Shown here piece after piece: positions 2,483-38,371 of a stretch of DNA of 64,000 bases. A program made the position numbers and the translations under genes. How positions within the stretch are numbered: the first letter of the stretch is position 1; every line of letters begins with the position of its first letter. This stretch comes from a virus: the IMG/VR virus record IMGVR_UViG_3300043777_000365, positions 1-64,000 of that record; one strand, 5' to 3'. Below the pieces are notes generated by a model. That model was not told the origin of the DNA, ran no database searches, and was given only the letters and a program-made list of their open reading frames with translations.

Positions 2483-2494
2483 CCACCCATCATG
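2483..2494 (-). promoter_or_regulatory. CATGAT promoter-like motif for DNA polymerase
   Basis: CATGAT (2489-2494) is followed by GGGTGG and the GTG start of the polymerase. The hexamer overlaps the TGA of the upstream gene. Confidence 0.5.
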
Positions 2495-3566
2495 CCTCGC
2501 GCTTGGCCGTCACCGTGAGCTTCATCTGCCCCGAGGGCATCCGGAGCACCTGGAAGACGAGCCGCACCCCGTTCGTCATGTCCAGCCACCCGTGCGGCAG
2601 GTCGTCGAGCTTCTTCGCCGGGACGAAGTCCCCGTGCTTGTCCTTCTTCGGGGCGTAGAGCGGCACCGTCGCCTTCTTCTCGAGCATCGTCGCGATGGCG
2701 AGCGAGTCCTTGGTCGGCTTCACCTCCGGCGCCTTCTTGGAGTTGCCCGCGCCGCCTTTGCCCGTTCGGCCCTTCGCGTCGTTCAGCTCCTTGGTGATCT
2801 GCTGGAGCTTGGCCCGGCTCGCCCCCGCCCGCGCCGCGTCCAGCACCTTGGCCCGGTGCTCCAGCGGGGCCTGCACCACGATGACGAGCCGGTTGATGCC
2901 AAACTCCTCGATGGTCGGCCGGTCGAACTCCCTCGCCGTCTTCAGCATGCGCTCGGCGTACGTGCGCGAGAACTCGAGCTCCTTGTTCGCGAAGTCCGAC
3001 CACGACTGGTAGAGCGGCGTCCCCTTGTCGTCGGTGCGCATCTTCCAGAGGTTCGAGTCGACGATCCTCCGGAACGTCATCGCGATGGCGTACATGCCGC
3101 GCGCCGCGTGGCTCTTGCCCTCGTTGATGACCGCGACCGCCTTGTCGAGCTGCTCCTCCGTCTGGGCCGTGGCCAGCCGCCCGTTGCCCCCCATCGCCTC
3201 GAGCGGGGCCCGCTCCACGTGGGCCATCGCGCGCGAGCTCGGGTCCGGCGGCTCCTCGCTCTCGGTGCCGCCCATCACGCTGCTCGGGGCGGAGCTGTCG
3301 TCGGCGGCCGCCTCCGCTCGGTCGTCGCTGCTCGTCTTCTCCTCCCGGTCCTCGTCCCCGCAGAACGGGCAGCTGCCGAGCTCCGTCGGCCACGGCCCGC
3401 CGCACACCGTGCAGTCGCCGACGTCGCCGTCGCTGTCGTTCAGCTTGGCCTTGAGAGCCTTCACCACCGTGGCGATGGTGCCGCCCGTCGGCACCTTGAA
3501 CTGCTTGGCGCTCCTCAGCACGAGCTTCTGGTCGATCTTCTTCAGGTCCACTCCGTCCGCGATCAT
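2490..3566 (-). CDS. Zinc-ribbon protein with helical DNA-binding-like domain
   Basis: A 358-aa protein of unknown function. Two CxxC pairs near residues 52-70 form a zinc ribbon, followed by an acidic Ser/Asp-rich linker. A central helical domain (about 135-250) contains LWKMR, SRTYAERML and FGINRLVIVVQAP. That domain has the same general pattern as the N-terminal half of the CRISPR-linked protein at 5306-5875 (a W-x-x-F-x-x-F stretch followed by a helix rich in Arg and Tyr). The C-terminus is basic. Its ATG overlaps the stop of the sigma-like gene (TGATG), so the two are probably co-translated. A role in DNA binding or regulation is only inferred. Confidence 0.75.
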   Translation of the reverse strand: MIADGVDLKKIDQKLVLRSAKQFKVPTGGTIATVVKALKAKLNDSDGDVGDCTVCGGPWPTELGSCPFCGDEDREEKTSSDDRAEAAADDSSAPSSVMGGTESEEPPDPSSRAMAHVERAPLEAMGGNGRLATAQTEEQLDKAVAVINEGKSHAARGMYAIAMTFRRIVDSNLWKMRTDDKGTPLYQSWSDFANKELEFSRTYAERMLKTAREFDRPTIEEFGINRLVIVVQAPLEHRAKVLDAARAGASRAKLQQITKELNDAKGRTGKGGAGNSKKAPEVKPTKDSLAIATMLEKKATVPLYAPKKDKHGDFVPAKKLDDLPHGWLDMTNGVRLVFQVLRMPSGQMKLTVTAKREA

Positions 3567-4231
3567 GGCGTTGCCTCCCGGGCCAGCCGGCCCAATCCCT
3601 GCTCAACCTCTCGCACGGCCTGCTCCACCGCGCGCACGCTTTGCCTGGGGCTCCTGAGCCCGTGGTCCGCCCGGGCCACCGGGTCGAACCAGAGGTCCAC
3701 CCCGGCCTCGACGACGTCGCCCCCGACGAGCATCCACACCCTCACCGCGTCGCGGTGCAGCGCCGTCGTCGACAGCCCCTCCAGCTGCGCCGCCACCTTG
3801 TCGTGGTCCACGCGCGCCTCCTGCTCCGGCTCCACGCTGGAGAACAGGTCGAACACCTCCGACTCGGAGAGCTCGCCGTCGGCGTTGACCCCGAGCGCCC
3901 CCATCGTGAGCGGGTGCCGGCTCGGCGCCTTGCCGTGCCTGGCCTTCCTTTGGCCGTGGATCCACTTCGCCGCCTTGTTGCACGCCGTCCAGCACACGAA
4001 CGTGGCGAGGGGGGTGCCCCGCGACGGGTCCCACCTGGCGACCCCTTGCCAAGCCCCGATGAGCATCTCCTGCCTCACGTCCTCGTCGCTGACCCCGGCC
4101 GGCAGCTGCCACCGGCCGAACATCTTGCCCGAGAGCCTGTCCCAATCTTCCCGGGTGTCCCTCGCGAACCTCGTGAACGTCGTCTCTTTGTGGTGCAGCG
4201 CGAGCAGCGCCGCCTCCAATCGCTTAGACAT
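3563..4231 (-). CDS. Sigma-70-like factor
   Basis: A 222-aa protein resembling a small sigma factor. Residues 46-97 read like sigma region 2: SDEDVRQEMLIGAW, then WDPSRGTPLATF, then a helix ending in a basic stretch. Residues 185-217 (SPRQSVRAVEQAVREVEQ) resemble the recognition helix of region 4. The linker between is acidic. The gene begins 24 nt from the trailer end of the CRISPR array on the same strand. It could direct RNA polymerase to the -10-only promoters of this phage, or work with the CRISPR effector; both are inference. Assignment rests on motif pattern only. Confidence 0.65.
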   Translation of the reverse strand: MSKRLEAALLALHHKETTFTRFARDTREDWDRLSGKMFGRWQLPAGVSDEDVRQEMLIGAWQGVARWDPSRGTPLATFVCWTACNKAAKWIHGQRKARHGKAPSRHPLTMGALGVNADGELSESEVFDLFSSVEPEQEARVDHDKVAAQLEGLSTTALHRDAVRVWMLVGGDVVEAGVDLWFDPVARADHGLRSPRQSVRAVEQAVREVEQGLGRLAREATP

Positions 4232-4254
4232 TTACACCCTGCTTTCTTGGTCGG

Positions 4255-5048
4255 CCTCCACCTTCACTCTTGCTCCACCTTCACTCCGATTCGTTTGCCA
4301 TTACGACCCGTCGGCATCGGTGGCGAGGTGCGTGCTGCGTCCCGCCTCCACCTTCACTCCGATTCGTTTGCCATTACGACTCTTTCTGTTCGAATCCCGT
4401 TCGTCCTCCGGTCCTCCGGACTCACCATCCTCCACCTTCACTCCGATTCGTTTGCCATTACGACCCAGGAAGCGCGTGCGGGCCGCCGTGGGCCACGAGC
4501 CTCCACCTTCACTCCGATTCGTTTGCCATTACGACCGAGCAGCTGGTGCGCGAGGTCCGGCAGGCGAGCATCCTCCACCTTCACTCCGATTCGTTTGCCA
4601 TTACGACGCTCGGCGCCGTGGTCGACGCGCTCAAGGTTCTGAACCTCCACCTTCACTCCGATTCGTTTGCCATTACGACCACAAGGATGCGTTCTCGGAG
4701 GCGTACCACTCGTCGCTCCTCCAACTTCACTCCGATTCGTTTGCCATTACGACTTCCGCCGCACCGGGGACCTCCGCCGGCCCCAAGCTCCGCCTCCACC
4801 TTCACTCCGATTCGTTTGCCATTACGACCGAATCCAAGCGTTTCGTCACTTGGGCAAGTGCCCGCCTCCACCTTCACTCCGATTCGTTTGCCATTACGAC
4901 TTCGCGGTGCTCGCTTTGATCAAAGCGAGAGCACACCTCCTCCACCTTCACTCCGATTCGTTTGCCATTACGACCGTTGTCATGCCATCGGGAAGCTGGC
5001 GGGTTGGGGCGTCCTCCACCTTCACTCCGATTCGTTTGCCATTACGAC
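4255..5048 (-). CRISPR. CRISPR array, 11 repeats and 10 spacers
   Basis: Eleven near-identical 36-bp repeats start at 4272, 4345, 4429, 4500, 4572, 4644, 4718, 4793, 4865, 4939 and 5013. In the likely sense (minus strand) the repeat begins GTCGTAATGG and ends GTGAAGGTGGAGG. Spacers are 35-39 nt except the second from the left (4381-4428, 48 nt). Variation is confined to single bases in the copies at 4272 and 4718, plus a truncated repeat at 4255-4271 directly abutting the first copy. Degeneration there marks the trailer end, so the leader side is at 5049. This matches minus-strand transcription together with the effector and tracrRNA region. Confidence 0.97.
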
Positions 5049-5300
5049 CCGTCTCGCCAAAGGCGCAAAACACCGAGCACTTGCGAGGTGGTTCGCGAGC
5101 GGTCGGTTCGCAGGCCCGAGAGGGGAGGCTCGGTGACGGTGGAGTGAAGGTATCCGGCGAGCCGGATGTCGCGGCAATCCCGAAGGAATCCCGCTTCGCG
5201 AGCGGAGACGGAGCTTATCCCGTCGCCCTCGCGCTCGCGCTGTGGAGTCAGCGCACCTAGCCACCACCGAAGCTCCCCAATCGGACCCGCGAACCATCGC
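5049..5300 (-). ncRNA. Probable tracrRNA and leader region
   Basis: No gene is apparent in about 250 nt between the array and the coiled-coil gene. In the minus sense it contains ACCTTCACTCC (complement of 5143-5153), an 11-nt perfect complement of the 3' part of the repeat, extended to ACCTTCACTCCACC. Just upstream is a strong hairpin, ATCCGG-CTCG-CCGGAT, preceded by further stems (CCGCT/AGCGG and GACGG/CCGTC). A possible terminator stem CCGAG/CTCGG follows the anti-repeat. This layout (hairpins then anti-repeat, next to the array) is typical of tracrRNAs of type V systems. Ends cannot be set from sequence. Confidence 0.6.
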
Positions 5301-5305
5301 CCACC

Positions 5306-5875
5306 TCACGCGTGCGCTTGCGCCGGCTCGTACTTGGCGAGCCGCTTCGCCAACTTCTCGTTCTCCTTCCTGAGCCGGCGCGCCTCCGATTCAAGCTCCT
5401 GCACCCTCGCCCGCAACTGCGACAGCTCGCCTACCTGGCGGATGGCCCCCGTCGACCCGGCTGGGGTCGACAACTCCTTGGCCCACGACTGAACCGTCTT
5501 TTCCGCCGGGGCCACGTTGTGCACTTCGAGGAATGCTCGAGCCTTGGCGGCGAACTGCTCAACGACCCCCTTGGTCGGCTCGTGCATCTTGCCCACCTGC
5601 ATCGTCCAGTGCGCCCCGTTGGCGAGCGCCTGCTCAATGCTGGTGCGCTCCACCCCCCGGGCGAAGTTCGCGTAGCGGTCGAACTCGCACAACTGGTTGC
5701 TCCGCACGAACTGCTCGAACGTCGAGCACCCGGCCTCACGCCACACGTCTTCCGCGTCCTCCTCCGCGCGCAGCAGGAAGGCGAAGAAATCCGCCTCTGC
5801 CCGCTCGCTCTTGAGTCGCAGCGCCTTTGCCGTCTCGACCAGCTCCTCGTACGTCATCTTTTTCTTGGTCACCAT
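5306..5875 (-). CDS. Coiled-coil protein of the CRISPR locus
   Basis: A 189-aa protein starting at an ATG preceded by GGAGG, 4 nt upstream. Residues 30-110 form a helical domain (DVWREAGCSTFEQFVRSNQL, then YANFARGVE). Residues 145-185 are a heptad-rich coiled coil (LRARVQELESEARRLRKEN), suggesting a dimer. The first 140 nt overlap the effector gene in another frame, so the two are translationally linked. The N-terminal domain resembles part of the 2490-3566 protein. It may be an accessory DNA-binding partner of the effector. I recognise no known Cas family in it. Confidence 0.8.
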   Translation of the reverse strand: MVTKKKMTYEELVETAKALRLKSERAEADFFAFLLRAEEDAEDVWREAGCSTFEQFVRSNQLCEFDRYANFARGVERTSIEQALANGAHWTMQVGKMHEPTKGVVEQFAAKARAFLEVHNVAPAEKTVQSWAKELSTPAGSTGAIRQVGELSQLRARVQELESEARRLRKENEKLAKRLAKYEPAQAHA

Positions 5876-7244
5876 TCGCCTCCTCCTTCGTCGTTACCGA
5901 TCGCAAACTCTCGGCCAGCTTCCGCTCCCGCTCGAACCTCTTCTCCCACGGGCCCATGTCCGCTCCACCCGATTGGAGCATCCACCAAGCGGCCACCCAG
6001 TCGGTCGGCCGCTCGAACACACATACCTTGCAGTGGAAGATGCCGGTTCGAACATTGTGGGCGCCCGCGTCGAGCGCCTTGCACCGGGGGCACTTGCTCG
6101 AGATGTACTCGCTGGGCACCTCGTCGAGACGCTTGCCTGTCTTCTCGAGTGCCGTCGCAACGCACTGCTTGAGTTGATATAGCGGACCGTGGTCGAGCAC
6201 ACGGCGGGTGGCCCGATCGTCCTCGACAATGCCGCCGTAGTCCTCGATGACCACCGACGCGCACCCGAGCTTGTCAGCCTGCGCTACGACGAACGCCGCT
6301 GCTTGCTGGCAGAACGTGTGGGTCACCCTCGCAATCTTGTCCTCGAGAGCGTCGTACGCCTCGTATCGACGCGACCGCCCATGGCCCTTGCTGCCCAACC
6401 CTCGCTCAAACTGTGACGTCCGCTTGATCTCCCGCGCCCTGGCCGAGAGCCGCCGGCGCTGAGCGAGGAGCTTCGAGCCTGGGAAGGCCATCCCTCGCTC
6501 ACCCGTCGACGCGAGCAGATAGAGCGCGTTGCGGGCGCCTCGATGCACGGCGAGCACCCGAGCGGGGTCGACCGGGACAGGTTCCGGACGCGGCTGCTTG
6601 TACGAGACGAGCGCGTACCATTTCCGCCGGCGCTCGTCGTACTGGAGCTTGGCGTCCGTGTACTCCCAAGCTTTGGAGGCCAGCGCGTCGACGACCTTTT
6701 CCTGCGCCCCCCAGCCGCGCATGACGGCGAACCGCACCGAGTTGTGCTTGCGGCCAGGCCTGAGGGTCAGCTCCAGGACGGTCCCTCGCTCGTCTCTGGC
6801 CAGATCGACGCCGGCCTGCCCGACGAGGATCCGCTTGCTGGAGAAGCGGGGGTTCCCTTGATCCCGCCGGCCATAAGCTTGGCATGCGGCGCGGGAGATC
6901 TTGGCCCCCATGTCTCCTGGGACCGAGAGGTCGCCAAACGGCCGGCCCTCTTTTTTCGCCGCCCACTCGCGCAGCTCCTCCACGGCGTGCATGACGGCCG
7001 GGTAGGTGAGCCCGTCCGCGCTGGCCGCCTTCACGGCCGGCGCGTACTCCAAGACCCTCCGGCGCAACGCCTCCGTCCCCACCACGCCCGCGGCCACCCG
7101 AGCCTCGAACGCCGCGTTGAGAAGCTTCGGGGTCGCGGCGGCGAGCTGCCGCAGCAACGGCCCCACCGTCTCCCAAGTGTCTGGAGCCAACGGCTTGACG
7201 ATCTCTAGCCGAACCGCCCGGATCAACACGTCGGCGGTGGTCAT
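5736..7244 (-). CDS. Compact Cas12/TnpB-like effector, RuvC-I Asp replaced
   Basis: A 502-aa RNA-guided-nuclease-type protein. The N-terminal half (1-225) corresponds to the wedge/recognition lobe. RuvC-I is VLAVHRGARNALYLL: the position that is Asp in this family is His234 (codon CAT at 6543-6545). The basic GSKGHGRSRR bridge (284-293), RuvC-II with Glu334 (VVIEDYGG), a zinc ribbon (C385, C388, C405, C408) and RuvC-III Asp415 (PTDWVAAWWML) are all kept. So only one catalytic residue is missing, suggesting DNA binding without cleavage. It is far shorter than Cas12a or phage CasPhi and closest in size to type V-U/V-F/V-M proteins. The array and tracrRNA argue against a plain IS605 TnpB. The C-terminal ~45 residues are encoded where the next gene overlaps and may be disordered. 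Confidence 0.88.
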   Translation of the reverse strand: MTTADVLIRAVRLEIVKPLAPDTWETVGPLLRQLAAATPKLLNAAFEARVAAGVVGTEALRRRVLEYAPAVKAASADGLTYPAVMHAVEELREWAAKKEGRPFGDLSVPGDMGAKISRAACQAYGRRDQGNPRFSSKRILVGQAGVDLARDERGTVLELTLRPGRKHNSVRFAVMRGWGAQEKVVDALASKAWEYTDAKLQYDERRRKWYALVSYKQPRPEPVPVDPARVLAVHRGARNALYLLASTGERGMAFPGSKLLAQRRRLSARAREIKRTSQFERGLGSKGHGRSRRYEAYDALEDKIARVTHTFCQQAAAFVVAQADKLGCASVVIEDYGGIVEDDRATRRVLDHGPLYQLKQCVATALEKTGKRLDEVPSEYISSKCPRCKALDAGAHNVRTGIFHCKVCVFERPTDWVAAWWMLQSGGADMGPWEKRFERERKLAESLRSVTTKEEANGDQEKDDVRGAGRDGKGAATQERAGRGGFLRLPAARGGGRGRRVA

Positions 7245-11789: not shown

Positions 11790-12734
11790 TCACCACACAT
11801 CGGCGACGGCCTCGGAGAGCTTCGTCGTGAGCAGGTCGGGCGGGGCGTTGGCCGGGTCCATCCCCTCGGGCAGCCGCGCGCGGGCCACCGGCACGTAGCT
11901 CGACAGCGCCGCGAGCAGCTGCTGGGCCGCCCTGTCCCCCGCCGGGTCCGCGTCCGTCGCCACGACCACGAACCTGAACCGCGACAGCTTGGCCACGGCG
12001 ACCGGGTCCACGCGCGAGCCGCCGAGGGCGAGCACCGGCCCCTCGCACACGCGCTCCACCGCCAGCGCGTTGAGCGCCCCCTCGACCACCACCACGCCGG
12101 CCCCGCCCGCCTCCCACGCGTGCTCCTCGCCGAACAGCACGCTCGTGTCCGGCCCCTCCTCCTCGCGCGGCGTCAGGTAGCGCACCGGCTGCCCCGCGTA
12201 GGCCCGCGCCGTGTAGCTGGCCACCCTGCCCGAGCCGTCCCGCACGGGGACCACGATGCGGCCGTCCAGGCGGCCCCCCAGCGCGTGGCCGAGCCCCCAG
12301 CGCTCCACCTGCCAGGGCTCGATGCCGCGCTTGTCCTGGGCGTACTGGCGCGCCGGCGTGGGCCAGTCCTCGAGCGGGGCAAGGATGACCTCCGGCGGCA
12401 GCTGAAACCCGCCCGGCCGGGGCGGGACGGTCACCCGGACCGCCGTCGGCGGGAGCTCGGCCACCTCCGCGTGGTCCGCGACCCACTGCCGCGCCACCCC
12501 GAACCCGACCCCGACGATGCGGGCCGCGAGCTGGACGGCGTTGCCCCCTTCTCCACAACTTCTGCATATCCACAAGCCCATCTTGTCCGGGTCGTCGTGC
12601 CGGATCGCGAAGCTTGGCTTGTTGTCCACATGGGTGCCGAGCGGGCACCGGCAGACGAGGTGGACGTCGTCGGAGAGCCTCTCGTCCACCTGCACCTCGA
12701 GCGAGGCTAGGAGCCTGCGGACGTCGAGGGTCAT
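11790..12734 (-). CDS. DnaG/TOPRIM-type primase
   Basis: A 314-aa primase that should make RNA primers for the phage replisome. The N-terminal zinc domain has C28, C30, H35, C57 and C60 (CRSCGEGGNAVQL). The TOPRIM domain shows VVVVEGALNAL with Glu218 and VVVATDADPAGD with Asp261 and Asp263. It is shorter than host DnaG, lacking the C-terminal helicase-binding domain. The ATG overlaps the stop of the small winged-helix gene upstream (TGATG), and the DnaB-type helicase is 500 nt upstream in the same direction. Confidence 0.92.
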   Translation of the reverse strand: MTLDVRRLLASLEVQVDERLSDDVHLVCRCPLGTHVDNKPSFAIRHDDPDKMGLWICRSCGEGGNAVQLAARIVGVGFGVARQWVADHAEVAELPPTAVRVTVPPRPGGFQLPPEVILAPLEDWPTPARQYAQDKRGIEPWQVERWGLGHALGGRLDGRIVVPVRDGSGRVASYTARAYAGQPVRYLTPREEEGPDTSVLFGEEHAWEAGGAGVVVVEGALNALAVERVCEGPVLALGGSRVDPVAVAKLSRFRFVVVATDADPAGDRAAQQLLAALSSYVPVARARLPEGMDPANAPPDLLTTKLSEAVADVW

Positions 12735-12955
12735 CAGCTGGACGGGAGCCCCAAGGCGACTCGCCCCGCCGGCGTGAGCACCCACAGTCGCCTCGGGACG
12801 CTGGGGCCGTCGACGAAGCCGATGCTCTTCAGCTGCCGGAACACCATCTCCACCGGGGGGTCGGCCGCCGTGCACGGCCCTCGCTCCCCGAGCAGGACTA
12901 GGGCTTTGAGCTGCGGCGGGGTCAGCGCCGCCCGGAGCGAGGGGTGGATGCTCAC
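12734..12955 (-). CDS. Small winged-helix-like protein
   Basis: A 73-aa protein, GTG start (VSIHPSLRAALTPPQLK). The pattern helix-helix-FVDGPSVPRRLWVLTPAGRVAL (a beta wing ending in LTPAGR) is common in small winged-helix regulators. Lies between primase and helicase genes with overlaps on both ends; perhaps a replication accessory factor. Confidence 0.65.
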   Translation of the reverse strand: MSIHPSLRAALTPPQLKALVLLGERGPCTAADPPVEMVFRQLKSIGFVDGPSVPRRLWVLTPAGRVALGLPSS

Positions 12956-13143: not shown

Positions 13144-13209
13144 GACCCCCATCATGCCGCGCTTTGTTCCGATGCGTGGCATGATGATCCTCGGAGTGAA
13201 GGTAGAGGG
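13144..13209. promoter_or_regulatory. Two opposed CATGAT motifs and a CRISPR-repeat-like segment
   Basis: Minus-strand CATGAT at 13151-13156 serves the 63-aa gene. A plus-strand CATGAT lies at 13180-13185. Right after it, 13191-13208 reads TCGGAGTGAAGGTAGAGG, matching 17 of 18 bases of the CRISPR repeat end. A plus-strand transcript would carry this segment into the helicase 3' end as antisense RNA. Confidence 0.5.
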
Positions 13210-26051: not shown

Positions 26052-27179
26052 TCACACCAGGGTGATGCCCGAGGCGAGCGCGCGGAGCGTCTGCCCGGGG
26101 GTGGGGACGAGGTCGCCGGTGGGGCTGACGATGGTGCCCGGGGTGCTGACGATGAGCCCCTGGCTCGCGTACCGCTGCAGCACGCTGTAGAGCGCGGAGA
26201 GCTGCAGCGTGCCGTTGGCGGGCAGCGAGTTGACGTAGTTGAGCACGGCCGCCTGCACCGACGCGCTGAGCGCCGACGTGTTCACCCCGGCCGCGAACAC
26301 CAGGTGCATCGACACCGACACGATCTGCGGGACGGTCGGGAAGACGATGACCTGGATGCCGGCGGCCCTCCAGTTGCCCAGGTTCTGGACGACCGTGGCG
26401 GCGAGCACCAGGTTCGCCACCCCGCTCGAGTCGGCGATGTAGAGGTAGACGAGCCGCGCCGGGGCCCCCGTGTTCGTGATGACCTCGACGGCCTGCGCGC
26501 TGACGACGCCCGGGGTCTGGATGGCGCCGTACTGGATGGCGGAGAGGATGCCGCGCTGCTGCGCGGTCCAGTAGCCGCGGACGCGCTCGCGGAACGTGTC
26601 GTCGTCCTCGACGTCCTCGCCGCCGGCCGTGGCGAACAGGTTGTTGCACGTGATGGACGGGTCGAAGACCTGCGACGGGTTCGCGAAGGCCGTGAGGCTG
26701 TTCGCCCCCACCTGCGACAGCTTGCCCGCCTGCACCGCGCGCACGGCCGCCACGGCCACCGTGTCGCTCACGGCCCCCGTCCCCGAGGTGAAGGTGGCGC
26801 TCGTCGTCGTCAGGTAGTTGAAGCCGCTCTGGCTCTTGAGGACGGTGCCGGCGGGGATGGTGCCGGCGGGGTTGGTCGCGAGCACCCGCGAGAACGTCTC
26901 GAGCCCGAGCGCGGCCGAGGCCCCTTTGCGCAGGAGCTGGTAGCGGTCCCACGCGTAGCGGTCGAGGTCGTCGCCCTCGGCCCCGTCGAGGAAGAGCCGG
27001 TTGATGCTGTAGGCGAGCTGGAGGATGCAGAGGTAGGCGATCTCGCTGACGGACCCGACGAAGATGTTCGCGTCGGTGCCCTGCACGTCGACCTGCTGCG
27101 GGTCGATCTTGATGGCCTTCGCGATGAGATACGAGCGCCCGACCTGGTACAGGTCATTTCGGCTCACGAGATCAGCCAT
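26052..27179 (-). CDS. Baseplate J-like protein
   Basis: A 375-aa protein of the P2 gpJ/Mu gp47 wedge family. Signs are the start MADLVSRNDLY, the strand-turn segment AGTIPAGTVLKSQSG, GGEDVEDDDTFRERV (the usual G-G-x-D-x-E-x-D-x-x-x-R-x-R-V block) and the C-terminal NYVNSLPANGTL. It connects the baseplate hub to the outer wedges. Start is the ATG at 27179, with AGGCGATGG upstream; a longer frame upstream is not needed. Confidence 0.88.
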   Translation of the reverse strand: MADLVSRNDLYQVGRSYLIAKAIKIDPQQVDVQGTDANIFVGSVSEIAYLCILQLAYSINRLFLDGAEGDDLDRYAWDRYQLLRKGASAALGLETFSRVLATNPAGTIPAGTVLKSQSGFNYLTTTSATFTSGTGAVSDTVAVAAVRAVQAGKLSQVGANSLTAFANPSQVFDPSITCNNLFATAGGEDVEDDDTFRERVRGYWTAQQRGILSAIQYGAIQTPGVVSAQAVEVITNTGAPARLVYLYIADSSGVANLVLAATVVQNLGNWRAAGIQVIVFPTVPQIVSVSMHLVFAAGVNTSALSASVQAAVLNYVNSLPANGTLQLSALYSVLQRYASQGLIVSTPGTIVSPTGDLVPTPGQTLRALASGITLV

Positions 27180-27217
27180 GGTTTTGACCCATCGCCTGCC
27201 GAAGCTACCACCGACCC

Positions 27218-28213
27218 CTAAGTCTGAGGGCCGGTCGGGGCGAGCGGAGTGGCTCCGGCGGTCGGCGGGAGGGCCTGGCCGGTCTGCGTGTTGAAAGGCA
27301 TGTTGAGCTGGCGGCTCACACCCTGCCGCGTCTGCACGTACGCGGAGAACCTCGTGATCTGCGGGGTCACCGGGTCGGAGTAGGCCTGCACCGCGCACTT
27401 CAGGACCTCGGGCTCGAGGGAGAACTGCGACTGGAGCGCCGCGGCGAGCTGGTTGCGCACGGCGGCCGTGCCCAGCGTCTTCACCTTGTCGGCGAGCCCC
27501 ACCCCGTACGTGAGCGGCAGGTGCGCGAATGCCCCGGGCCGGCTCATCGCCCGGCGGTAGAGCCGCTTGAGCAGGGCGACGATCCCCTGCTCGACGGCGT
27601 AGTCGCCCGAGTCGTCCACGACGAAGGCCCCGAGCGTCACGAGGCCCCCGCCCACGCTCGTCGCGACGGCGGCGGTGCTCGCGCCGATGGTCGACCCGGC
27701 GATGCCGGACTGGCTCTGCGGGTTGGCGAAGTCGCGCGTGGGCAGAGCCTGGTCCGAGCTCGCGACGACCAGCTGCTTGAGCACCCCGTAGAGCGTGTAC
27801 GACTGGGTCAGCGGGAACATCGGCACCCCGCCCGACGTCGTCAGCCCTGAGAGCGTGATGGTGTACTGCGCCGGGTACGGGCTCATCGGCCGGTCCATCA
27901 CGACGTCGATCTCGGAGCTTTGAATGGTGTCGGAGTAGTCGACGGTGGTGCCGGCCGAGACCGCCGTCACCGTGCGGACCGGGTTGTTGTCGTAGCCGAC
28001 CGTGCCGGCCACCGCGGCGACCGTGTAGTGGGACGGGTCGGCGCCGTCGGCCGGGTCGAGCACGCCGGACACGTACGGGACGACGTTGAAGTAGAGCCGC
28101 ACGACGTTCTCGGCGACGGCGACCGCGTAGAGCAGCTCGAGCCCGCCCGTGGAGGAGTCGGGGGTGCCGCCCCAGTTCGACCCGCCCCAGTTGGCTTCGC
28201 CCCAGCCGGGCAT
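27218..28213 (-). CDS. Baseplate protein with gp25/gpW-like C-terminal part
   Basis: A 331-aa protein (MPGWGEANWGGSNWGG start). Residues 1-190 are beta-rich with repeated GWGxxNWGG. Residues 200-300 (GAFAHLPLTYGVGLADKVKTL, then a helix and ITRFSAYVQTRQG) follow the order of T4 gp25/P2 gpW wedge proteins. The gene order spike, this gene, gpJ-like supports that. ATG overlaps the upstream stop (ATGA). Confidence 0.7.
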   Translation of the reverse strand: MPGWGEANWGGSNWGGTPDSSTGGLELLYAVAVAENVVRLYFNVVPYVSGVLDPADGADPSHYTVAAVAGTVGYDNNPVRTVTAVSAGTTVDYSDTIQSSEIDVVMDRPMSPYPAQYTITLSGLTTSGGVPMFPLTQSYTLYGVLKQLVVASSDQALPTRDFANPQSQSGIAGSTIGASTAAVATSVGGGLVTLGAFVVDDSGDYAVEQGIVALLKRLYRRAMSRPGAFAHLPLTYGVGLADKVKTLGTAAVRNQLAAALQSQFSLEPEVLKCAVQAYSDPVTPQITRFSAYVQTRQGVSRQLNMPFNTQTGQALPPTAGATPLAPTGPQT

Positions 28214-36577: not shown

Positions 36578-38371
36578 CTAAAAAGAAGATTGTGGCACTT
36601 GGGTTGAAGCCGACACCTTGCTTCGTGCTGCTCTACCAAACCCCTCTTTCATCACAGCGACCAGGCGGTCCGGGTCGGTGTCCTTGAAGTCCTGCTGGAT
36701 CGTGATCGCCCCCGTGAAGTTGTAGACGGGGGGAGCCTTGATGGCGCCGACCTCGGGCTCGCCCCCGCCCGCCACGCCCGTGCGCATCGCCCCGGGCCGG
36801 TCGTGCGCCATGCCGGCCCCCTGGATCTCGTGCCCGATGTCGAACGCCTCCTCGACGGTGTGCAGGAGGTCCACGAGGTGATGCTCCAGGAACGCGAACG
36901 CGTGCGCCAGGTCCGCGACGACGAAGGAGACCTCCTTCACCTTGTCCAGGAGCTCCATCCCGAGCCACTCGGCCAGCCCCTTCAGGTCCGCGCCCACGGA
37001 GTCCGACCCCTGCGTCAGCGCGTCCCACGCCTCCATCAGGTTCGACTCGATGACCTCCATCGCGACCTGCGCCTCGCCGTAGTACTCGCTCGTCTCGTCG
37101 GTCAGGTCCACGAACGCCCCGTAGACGGCCGCCACGGCCCCCGCGAGCGCGACGGCCGCCACCGCCTCGGCCGCGAGGGTGACCGGGTCGAACGCCGCGG
37201 CCACGGCCTCGCCGAGCTCGGTGACGGACGCGGACAGCCCCTTGGAGAAGAGCCCGCCGATGGCGTCCGCCGCCCCCGTCGCCGCCGCCGTGCCGACATT
37301 GGCCACGCCCGGGGCCGCCTGGAGGATCTTCCCCGCGGCGAACGCCTCCGCGATGGCCGCCTTGTGCGCGAGGATGAAGTCGACGACGGCCTTGACGTCG
37401 TGCGCCCCCTTGGAGAACGCCTCCTTGATCTGCTCGGCGTGGTCCTGCAGGTACTCGAACCCCTCCTGGATCTTGTCGGCGGCCTCGCCGATCCACTCGC
37501 CGACCTTGTCCCCCACCGTCGAGGCGAACGCCTCGATGGCCTCCTTGTGGTCCTGGAAGTAGCCGCGCAGCCGGTCGAGCGGCCCGCCCAGCGCCTTGAG
37601 GATGGGGGCGCCGAGGCTCTCGAAGATCTCCTCGCGCATCGTCTTGAGCGAGGTGACCAGCTCGTTGAAGGTGAGCGGCAGCCCCTTCATCTTCGCCCCC
37701 ATCTTCTCGACGGCGTCGATGCCGAGCTGCATCGCCTGCTCCGGGCTCATCTTCGTCATCTGCGCGGCGACCTGCTTGGCCGTGCCGGCGAGCATCCCGG
37801 TGGCCGAGATCATCTGCACGATGGGGTTGCGGGCCCGGATGATGCCGGAGGAGAGGTTGGAGAACCCCGTGGAAAGCGCGCTGATGCCGCCGGGGACGGC
37901 CTTGCCCGCGTTCGCCATCTGCTCGGTGAGCTGCTCGACGTCCTTGGTGGCGAGGCCGGTGCGCTCCGCCATCTCGTCGAACGCCGCGACCACATCCCCC
38001 TTCGCCTGGCCGGTGGTCTCGGCGAGCTCAGCGAAGCTCTCGTTCAGCTCGTGCGCCTCGCCGCCGAGCTCCTCGAGCGACGCCCCCTCCTCGTCGATCA
38101 TCGCGAGCACGCCGCGGATGGCCTTCTCCTGCTCCTCCATCCCCGCGGCGGCCTCGAACGCCTCGTGCCCGAGCTCCTTGATGCTCTCGACCGCCCCCTC
38201 CAGCTGGAACCCGAGCGCGACGGCGGCCGCGTTCTTGAACATCTCGACCAGCTCGTGGCCGGTCTCCATCACCTTCTCGTCCAGCGCCTCGAAGCCCTCC
38301 CCGATGTGGTGGAGGGCCTCGGACATGTGGTCTTCCAACCGGAGGGAAGTCTTCACCTCGTGTTCGGCCAT
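36578..38371 (-). CDS. Tape measure protein
   Basis: A 597-aa, Ala/Glu-rich, mostly alpha-helical protein with a hydrophobic patch (PVTLAAEAVAAVALAGAVAA, about 395-425). Lies directly after the frameshifted chaperone genes. By the rule of about 1.5 angstrom per residue the tail tube would be near 90 nm. The C-terminus (DPDRLVAVMKEGFGRAARSK) is usual for these proteins. Confidence 0.85.
   Translation of the reverse strand: MAEHEVKTSLRLEDHMSEALHHIGEGFEALDEKVMETGHELVEMFKNAAAVALGFQLEGAVESIKELGHEAFEAAAGMEEQEKAIRGVLAMIDEEGASLEELGGEAHELNESFAELAETTGQAKGDVVAAFDEMAERTGLATKDVEQLTEQMANAGKAVPGGISALSTGFSNLSSGIIRARNPIVQMISATGMLAGTAKQVAAQMTKMSPEQAMQLGIDAVEKMGAKMKGLPLTFNELVTSLKTMREEIFESLGAPILKALGGPLDRLRGYFQDHKEAIEAFASTVGDKVGEWIGEAADKIQEGFEYLQDHAEQIKEAFSKGAHDVKAVVDFILAHKAAIAEAFAAGKILQAAPGVANVGTAAATGAADAIGGLFSKGLSASVTELGEAVAAAFDPVTLAAEAVAAVALAGAVAAVYGAFVDLTDETSEYYGEAQVAMEVIESNLMEAWDALTQGSDSVGADLKGLAEWLGMELLDKVKEVSFVVADLAHAFAFLEHHLVDLLHTVEEAFDIGHEIQGAGMAHDRPGAMRTGVAGGGEPEVGAIKAPPVYNFTGAITIQQDFKDTDPDRLVAVMKEGFGRAARSKVSASTQVPQSSF

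Follow-up and report, generated by a model that had tools for sequence, protein, structure and literature searches.

A predicted tracrRNA beside the CRISPR array of a phage Cas12f-like effector with a substituted RuvC residue

The window analyzed here is a stretch of 64,000 nucleotides of the 86,753-base (86.7 kb) virus record IMGVR_UViG_3300043777_000365. Genes for a family-B DNA polymerase (71-2482), a DNA primase (11790-12875), a baseplate wedge protein (26052-27398) and a tape-measure protein (36578-38371), all on the minus strand, indicate that it belongs to a tailed phage. Reading along the minus strand, we found an effector gene (7244-5736), an accessory open reading frame (5875-5306), a gap of 257 nt, a CRISPR array (5048-4255) and a sigma-like gene (4231-3563). 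The array (4255-5048, minus strand) contains 11 near-full 36-nt repeats, a 15-nt repeat fragment at its distal end and 10 spacers of 35-48 nt. The repeat is GTCGTAATGGCAAACGAATCGGAGTGAAGGTGGAGG, positions 21-31 of which read GGAGTGAAGGT, and the crRNA sense is the minus strand, the same as for the effector. The 3' end of the repeat recurs with one mismatch as an 18-nt near-copy (BLAST E 0.007) at 13191-13208, where a short gap separates two minus-strand open reading frames.

The locus was compared with those of related effectors in Virus Rctr197k (L002), the IMG/VR contigs L004, L005 and L007 and the short contig L008, and with that of Alicyclobacillus phage MMB025 (L003), whose effector is a conventional relative. 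Arrays adjoin the effector in L002, L004, L005 and L007, and the array of L008 is degenerate. A search of 50,697 phage records for protospacers returned 0, and the carriers' own genomes gave no convincing match; a tRNA considered as the target of spacer 9 was dropped since its T-stem would not pair. Inverted repeats with arms of 8-10 bp, for example CTCGCTTTGATCAAAGCGAG, were seen in 3 of 25 spacers (window 4901-4938, L005 7823-7862 and L007 7885-7910), and as many spacer inverted repeats (arms of at least 7) occurred in 9 of 1000 shuffled sets. These spacers might possibly have operator- or terminator-like targets.

The initial annotation had proposed a tracrRNA next to the array, made of a minus-strand anti-repeat perfectly complementary to the repeat that follows a hairpin-rich stretch in a gap with no gene, in the orientation of the array and the effector. 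The analysis bears out this description. No supported gene lies in the 257 nt between the end of the open reading frame at 5306-5875 (minus strand) and the array, and the effector, the putative tracrRNA and the array share the minus strand. The anti-repeat ACCTTCACTCC (5151-5141) is a perfect complement of repeat positions 21-31 and leaves GGAGG, the final 5 bases of the repeat, unpaired, and four predicted hairpins precede it (5263-5152), the last one abutting it. The predicted core, H1-H2-H3-H4-anti-repeat, spans 5141-5263 (minus strand), as judged by manual delimitation, folds and a covariance-model match at 5129-5261 (minus strand); the 3' ends given by the model and by the manual core differ by about 12 bases because the model closes the last stem of the window slightly differently. 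H1 folds as GCGCTG-ACTCCA-CAGCGC (5237-5254), H2 carries the conserved arms CGCGAGGG and CCGCTCGCG (5197-5233, with the 5' arm at 5233-5228), and H4 (ATCCGG-ctcg-CCGGAT, 5152-5167), directly 5' of the anti-repeat, has an equivalent stem in the relatives whose sequence varies while its pairing is kept.

The true 5' end of the tracrRNA is probably further up, near 5290-5305. No sigma-70-type promoter consensus was found near 5290, although the host may use another consensus. On the other side, the 3' end of the tracrRNA may lie at a hairpin with a short T run behind it (5068-5107, minus strand), in the interval that separates the anti-repeat from the array; the terminator scan did not list this hairpin. 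The H2 3' arm (CCGCTCGC) recurs just 3' of the anti-repeat in the window (within 5050-5140, minus strand) and likewise in L002 and L007, and this further copy could rival the first for pairing with GCGAG.

The window by itself makes the anti-repeat plausible, not proven, and it is the comparative evidence that is decisive. Repeat matches of at least 11 letters outside the array number three genome-wide (at 5141, 13191 and 36088), and since about one is expected by chance in a genome of this size, the 11-nt match alone is weak; the probability that such a match falls within the gap is about 48 in 20000. Folding of 5152-5263 is modestly better than that of shuffled sequences (z -2.31, 5 of 200 as good). 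The anti-repeat of the window is short (11 bp), its duplex energy, taken without homologues, is not significant (142 of 2000 shuffles as good), and we rejected duplex energy alone as proof, the whole-region minimum of the window having fallen on another site. Even in the short-segment comparison, the energy minimum uses a register partly different from that of the 11 perfect pairs, so that the register given here for the window rests on inspection and analogy. An Rfam search of 4000-6000 matched no known family.

The four relatives L002, L004, L005 and L007 show the same hairpin order in the matching region, with a shared core GCGAGGG...CGCTCGC, and in all five phages, window included, the anti-repeat lies directly 3' of the same stem. 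The RNA itself is placed between the effector and the array in L002, L005 and L007, upstream of the effector in L004, and between the accessory gene and the array in the window. When the anti-repeat regions and repeats of the five phages were paired in a 5x5 duplex matrix, the best partner of each anti-repeat region was its own repeat (5/5; diagonal energies of -23.8, -34.7, -22.5, -37.8 and -42.4 kcal/mol). The anti-repeats of L005 and L007 are near full-length (-45.0 and -50.5 kcal/mol, 0 of 500 shuffles as good), and, by inspection, the final 5-7 or so repeat bases are left unpaired in each duplex.

We then relied on a covariance model, R1, built from the RNAs of L005, L002 and L007 plus a second L007 copy, with the window, L004 and all anti-repeats left out; these four well-aligning RNAs were used because MAFFT, when given all six RNAs, put the H2 arm of L004 in the wrong place. 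Searched against the whole 86.7 kb genome, this blinded model gave a sole significant match, at 5129-5261 on the minus strand (E=3.4e-6, next best 0.47), and its top match in the L004 phage lay at the expected place (E=9.4e-5), these E-values being rough given a short calibration. R1 found nothing at the L003 locus and no tracrRNA in L008. In its training alignment (A15), both sides have changed in 8 of 21 pairs, a covariation that is modest alone because there are four sequences, two of which are copies within one phage; 97.6% of the alignment cells are paired, versus 24-48% with the partner slid. Hand-chosen stem arms, which pair by construction, serve as illustration; the actual testing was done by the model search and by the control with the slid partner. 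A motif derived from the tracrRNA matched, in a viral set of 2.9 million contigs, only L005 and L007, which carry putatively dead effectors, while a looser motif gave 8 matches, 7 of them without an effector in the DNA examined. The second copy, at L007 4936-5240, shares blocks of 83-89% identity, has its own anti-repeat and lies upstream of the accessory gene; after it come a single degenerate sequence resembling a repeat and what may be a lone guide.

Complementarity to the cognate repeat, a conserved position and a covarying structure were thus found together, and the anti-repeat lies near the 3' end of the RNA and close to the effector or array, as in type V-F Cas12f systems. The structural comparison with related phages that the initial annotation had called for therefore turned out in its favor, with R1 recovering the RNAs of the window and L004 and with cognate pairing in five phages. 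These sequence comparisons support the conclusion that the stretch encodes a tracrRNA that is homologous in five phages, the window phage included.

The effector (5736-7244, minus strand) is a protein of 502 aa that resembles Cas12f1/Cas12u3. It matches Cas12u3/Cas12f in PADLOC (E 7e-32 and 1.8e-31) and PF07282 above the cut-off, and a profile of the effector family searched against the PDB ranks AsCas12f1 first (E 1.6e-51). AsCas12f is also the first structural match of the AlphaFold model, whose mean pLDDT is a modest 61.5 and which is better in the RuvC domain. Scans of genome collections for the effector gave no match. In Rctr197k, the effector (L002 5986-7389) is annotated as a transposase-like protein beside a CRISPR feature and looks like a dead Cas12f. 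With its RuvC and TNB/zinc-ribbon domains and its size (about 400-600 aa for the family), the effector has the make-up of a Cas12f; however, the first RuvC Asp is replaced by His (H234), while E334, D415 and the four zinc-ribbon Cys are kept. This broken triad goes beyond what the initial annotation had claimed. At the same position, His is present in the window, L002, L004, L005 and L007 (AVHRG, VVHRG or ALHRG), Asn in L008 and Asp in L003, and all seven, L003 included, retain the RuvC-II Glu, the RuvC-III Asp and the four Cys of the zinc ribbon. The triad is therefore H-E-D in five phages and N-E-D in one, versus the canonical D-E-D, and because D-E-D is absent we file the effector as a RuvC-inactivated Cas12f relative and not as a Cas12f nuclease.

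Another explanation could be that the tracrRNA is real and that the effector cuts like any ordinary Cas12f, with His functionally replacing the first RuvC Asp. Retention of His in five diverged phages, with the RuvC-II Glu, the RuvC-III Asp and the zinc ribbon intact, is unlike random decay. Histidine is able to ligand metals, and since it could in principle still bind one here, the loss of cutting is not proven. However, Asn stands at this RuvC position in L008, which weighs against such a replacement. In addition, Cas12m proteins whose triad is H-D-D or N-D-D bind dsDNA and show no nuclease activity on it, and one Cas12m was shown to repress transcription (PMC11013384). We consider a cutting effector unlikely. 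The substituted triad suggests instead that the effector has lost cutting and acts as an RNA-guided DNA-binding protein, a reading drawn mainly from the Cas12m precedent and thus by analogy rather than by test.

The accessory gene (5306-5875, minus strand) encodes a protein of 189 aa with a helical N-terminal domain and a long C-terminal helix predicted to form a coiled coil; its structure model is confident (pLDDT 84), with helices at 9-136 and the long helix at 145-186. All six phages mutated in RuvC-I have a homologue of about 190-205 aa at their effector locus, placed differently relative to the effector from phage to phage. An accessory profile gave one match in each of the six phages, as expected since it was built from the same six, and no match in the L003 phage, where the Asp is intact. 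What is informative is the pairwise similarity (E 5e-13 between the window and L002 proteins) and the number of copies, one in each of the six and none in L003, the contrast being with this single Asp-containing relative. Known families matched only the C-terminal helix, as generic coiled coils, and none matched the N-terminal domain; the fold search returned nothing beyond SopB/ParB-like matches, which were insignificant (best E 1.6). Homology with the nearby 358-aa protein (2490-3566) was rejected (hhalign probability 0.2%).

The gene on the other side of the array, which starts 24 nt beyond it, encodes a sigma-70 region-2 protein (3563-4231, minus strand; PF04542, E 1.4e-8). It adjoins the array on the strand of the effector, and structures named dCas12f (9n9c, 9n9m) are among the structural matches of the effector model. 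Naturally dead Cas12f proteins are reported to act with sigma factors. The locus could thus be a dCas12f-sigma system, in which the guide complex recruits this sigma factor and starts transcription at chosen sites. However, among the five other phage records, some of which are fragments, four lack a sigma gene and one has it only about 195 kb away, sigma factors of their own are common in phages, and the effector profile matched no dCas12f chain (9n9c, 9n9m) by sequence at E<0.01. As the sigma gene lies beside the effector only in the window, we rejected it as a conserved part of the system, and because this neighbor is specific to the window phage, RNA-guided transcription start is kept as a minor rival, slightly less probable still than a cutting effector. 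Finally, it is very improbable that the anti-repeat matches by chance, or is the remnant of an inverted repeat, beside an effector working with crRNA only, like Cas12m, for although the other 11-nt repeat matches in the genome occur at about the chance rate, the blinded model match, the shared position after H4 and the cognate pairing in five phages all speak against it, as does the far better match of the effectors to Cas12f, a tracrRNA user, than to Cas12m.

Altogether, we favor, with reasonable though not full confidence, a tracrRNA-dependent phage system derived from Cas12f, in which an effector that binds without cutting silences its targets together with a dedicated accessory partner. 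The effector would load the tracrRNA and crRNA together as a dual guide, and the resulting complex would bind matching dsDNA beside a PAM without cleaving it. Binding may then block transcription or replication of the targets, which could be other mobile elements or host genes, and the accessory protein would be a dedicated partner, strengthening silencing or directing it. The anatomy, homology, triad change and co-occurrence are read directly in the sequence; expression, guide loading, DNA binding, lack of cutting, silencing, the targets and the role of the partner are inferred. The guide side probably works like a tracrRNA-using Cas12f and the output like Cas12m or TldR. More tentatively, and at somewhat less than even chances, this phage-specific family of nuclease-dead, tracrRNA-dependent Cas12f with an orphan partner would be a new RNA-guided silencing or DNA-organizing module that phages program through multi-spacer arrays.

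Naturally cut-dead Cas12 proteins illustrate how CRISPR parts are re-used in regulation. In this phage Cas12f branch, as in Cas12m, His or Asn takes the place of the first RuvC Asp, and the branch adds an array, a recognizable tracrRNA and a partner gene that the one cutting-type relative in the comparison lacks. The predicted tracrRNA supplies an exact guide for binding tests, the partner gene raises the question of what phages attach to an RNA-guided DNA-binding protein, and a compact natural binder is a potentially useful tool.

No description of this tracrRNA, of the accessory gene or of the His/Asn family turned up in the open-access papers searched. A dead Cas12f in a phage is not without precedent, since a single sentence on huge phages mentions a 'dCas14', a phage Cas14/Cas12f without a catalytic residue for which repression was suggested, in a paper whose main text makes no mention of a tracrRNA (PMC7162821). 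The natural dCas12f that works with a sigma factor (PDB 9n9c, 9n9m) is alike in being a Cas12f called dead and in structure. In contrast, the phage effectors give no sequence-profile match to it, and family-wide sigma linkage was not found, the sigma gene adjoining the effector only in the window. TldR proteins, which are TnpB-like nuclease-dead repressors, take as guide a single adjacent RNA without a CRISPR array, whereas the phage system has a tracrRNA, a Cas12f effector instead of TnpB, and multi-spacer arrays in five phages, besides a degenerate one in L008. They resemble it in being RuvC-inactivated, in some cases phage-encoded, and linked to non-transposon genes (PMC13418256). Cas12m (type V-M) has His or Asn as the first RuvC residue in several members and binds DNA without cutting (PMC11013384), but it uses crRNA only and forms a separate lineage, while the phage system has a tracrRNA, ranks Cas12f1 first and shows weak similarity to a Cas12m chain (UnCas12m4a, E 7e-4). 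The closest likeness is to type V-F Cas12f1 of the AsCas12f1 branch (PADLOC Cas12u3; PDB 8j12, 8dzj, 7wju), with shared homology, TNB domain and zinc ribbon, similar size, a structured tracrRNA and a nearby array, from which the phage system differs by its RuvC-I His/Asn, its accessory protein, its phage location and its group-specific RNA core.
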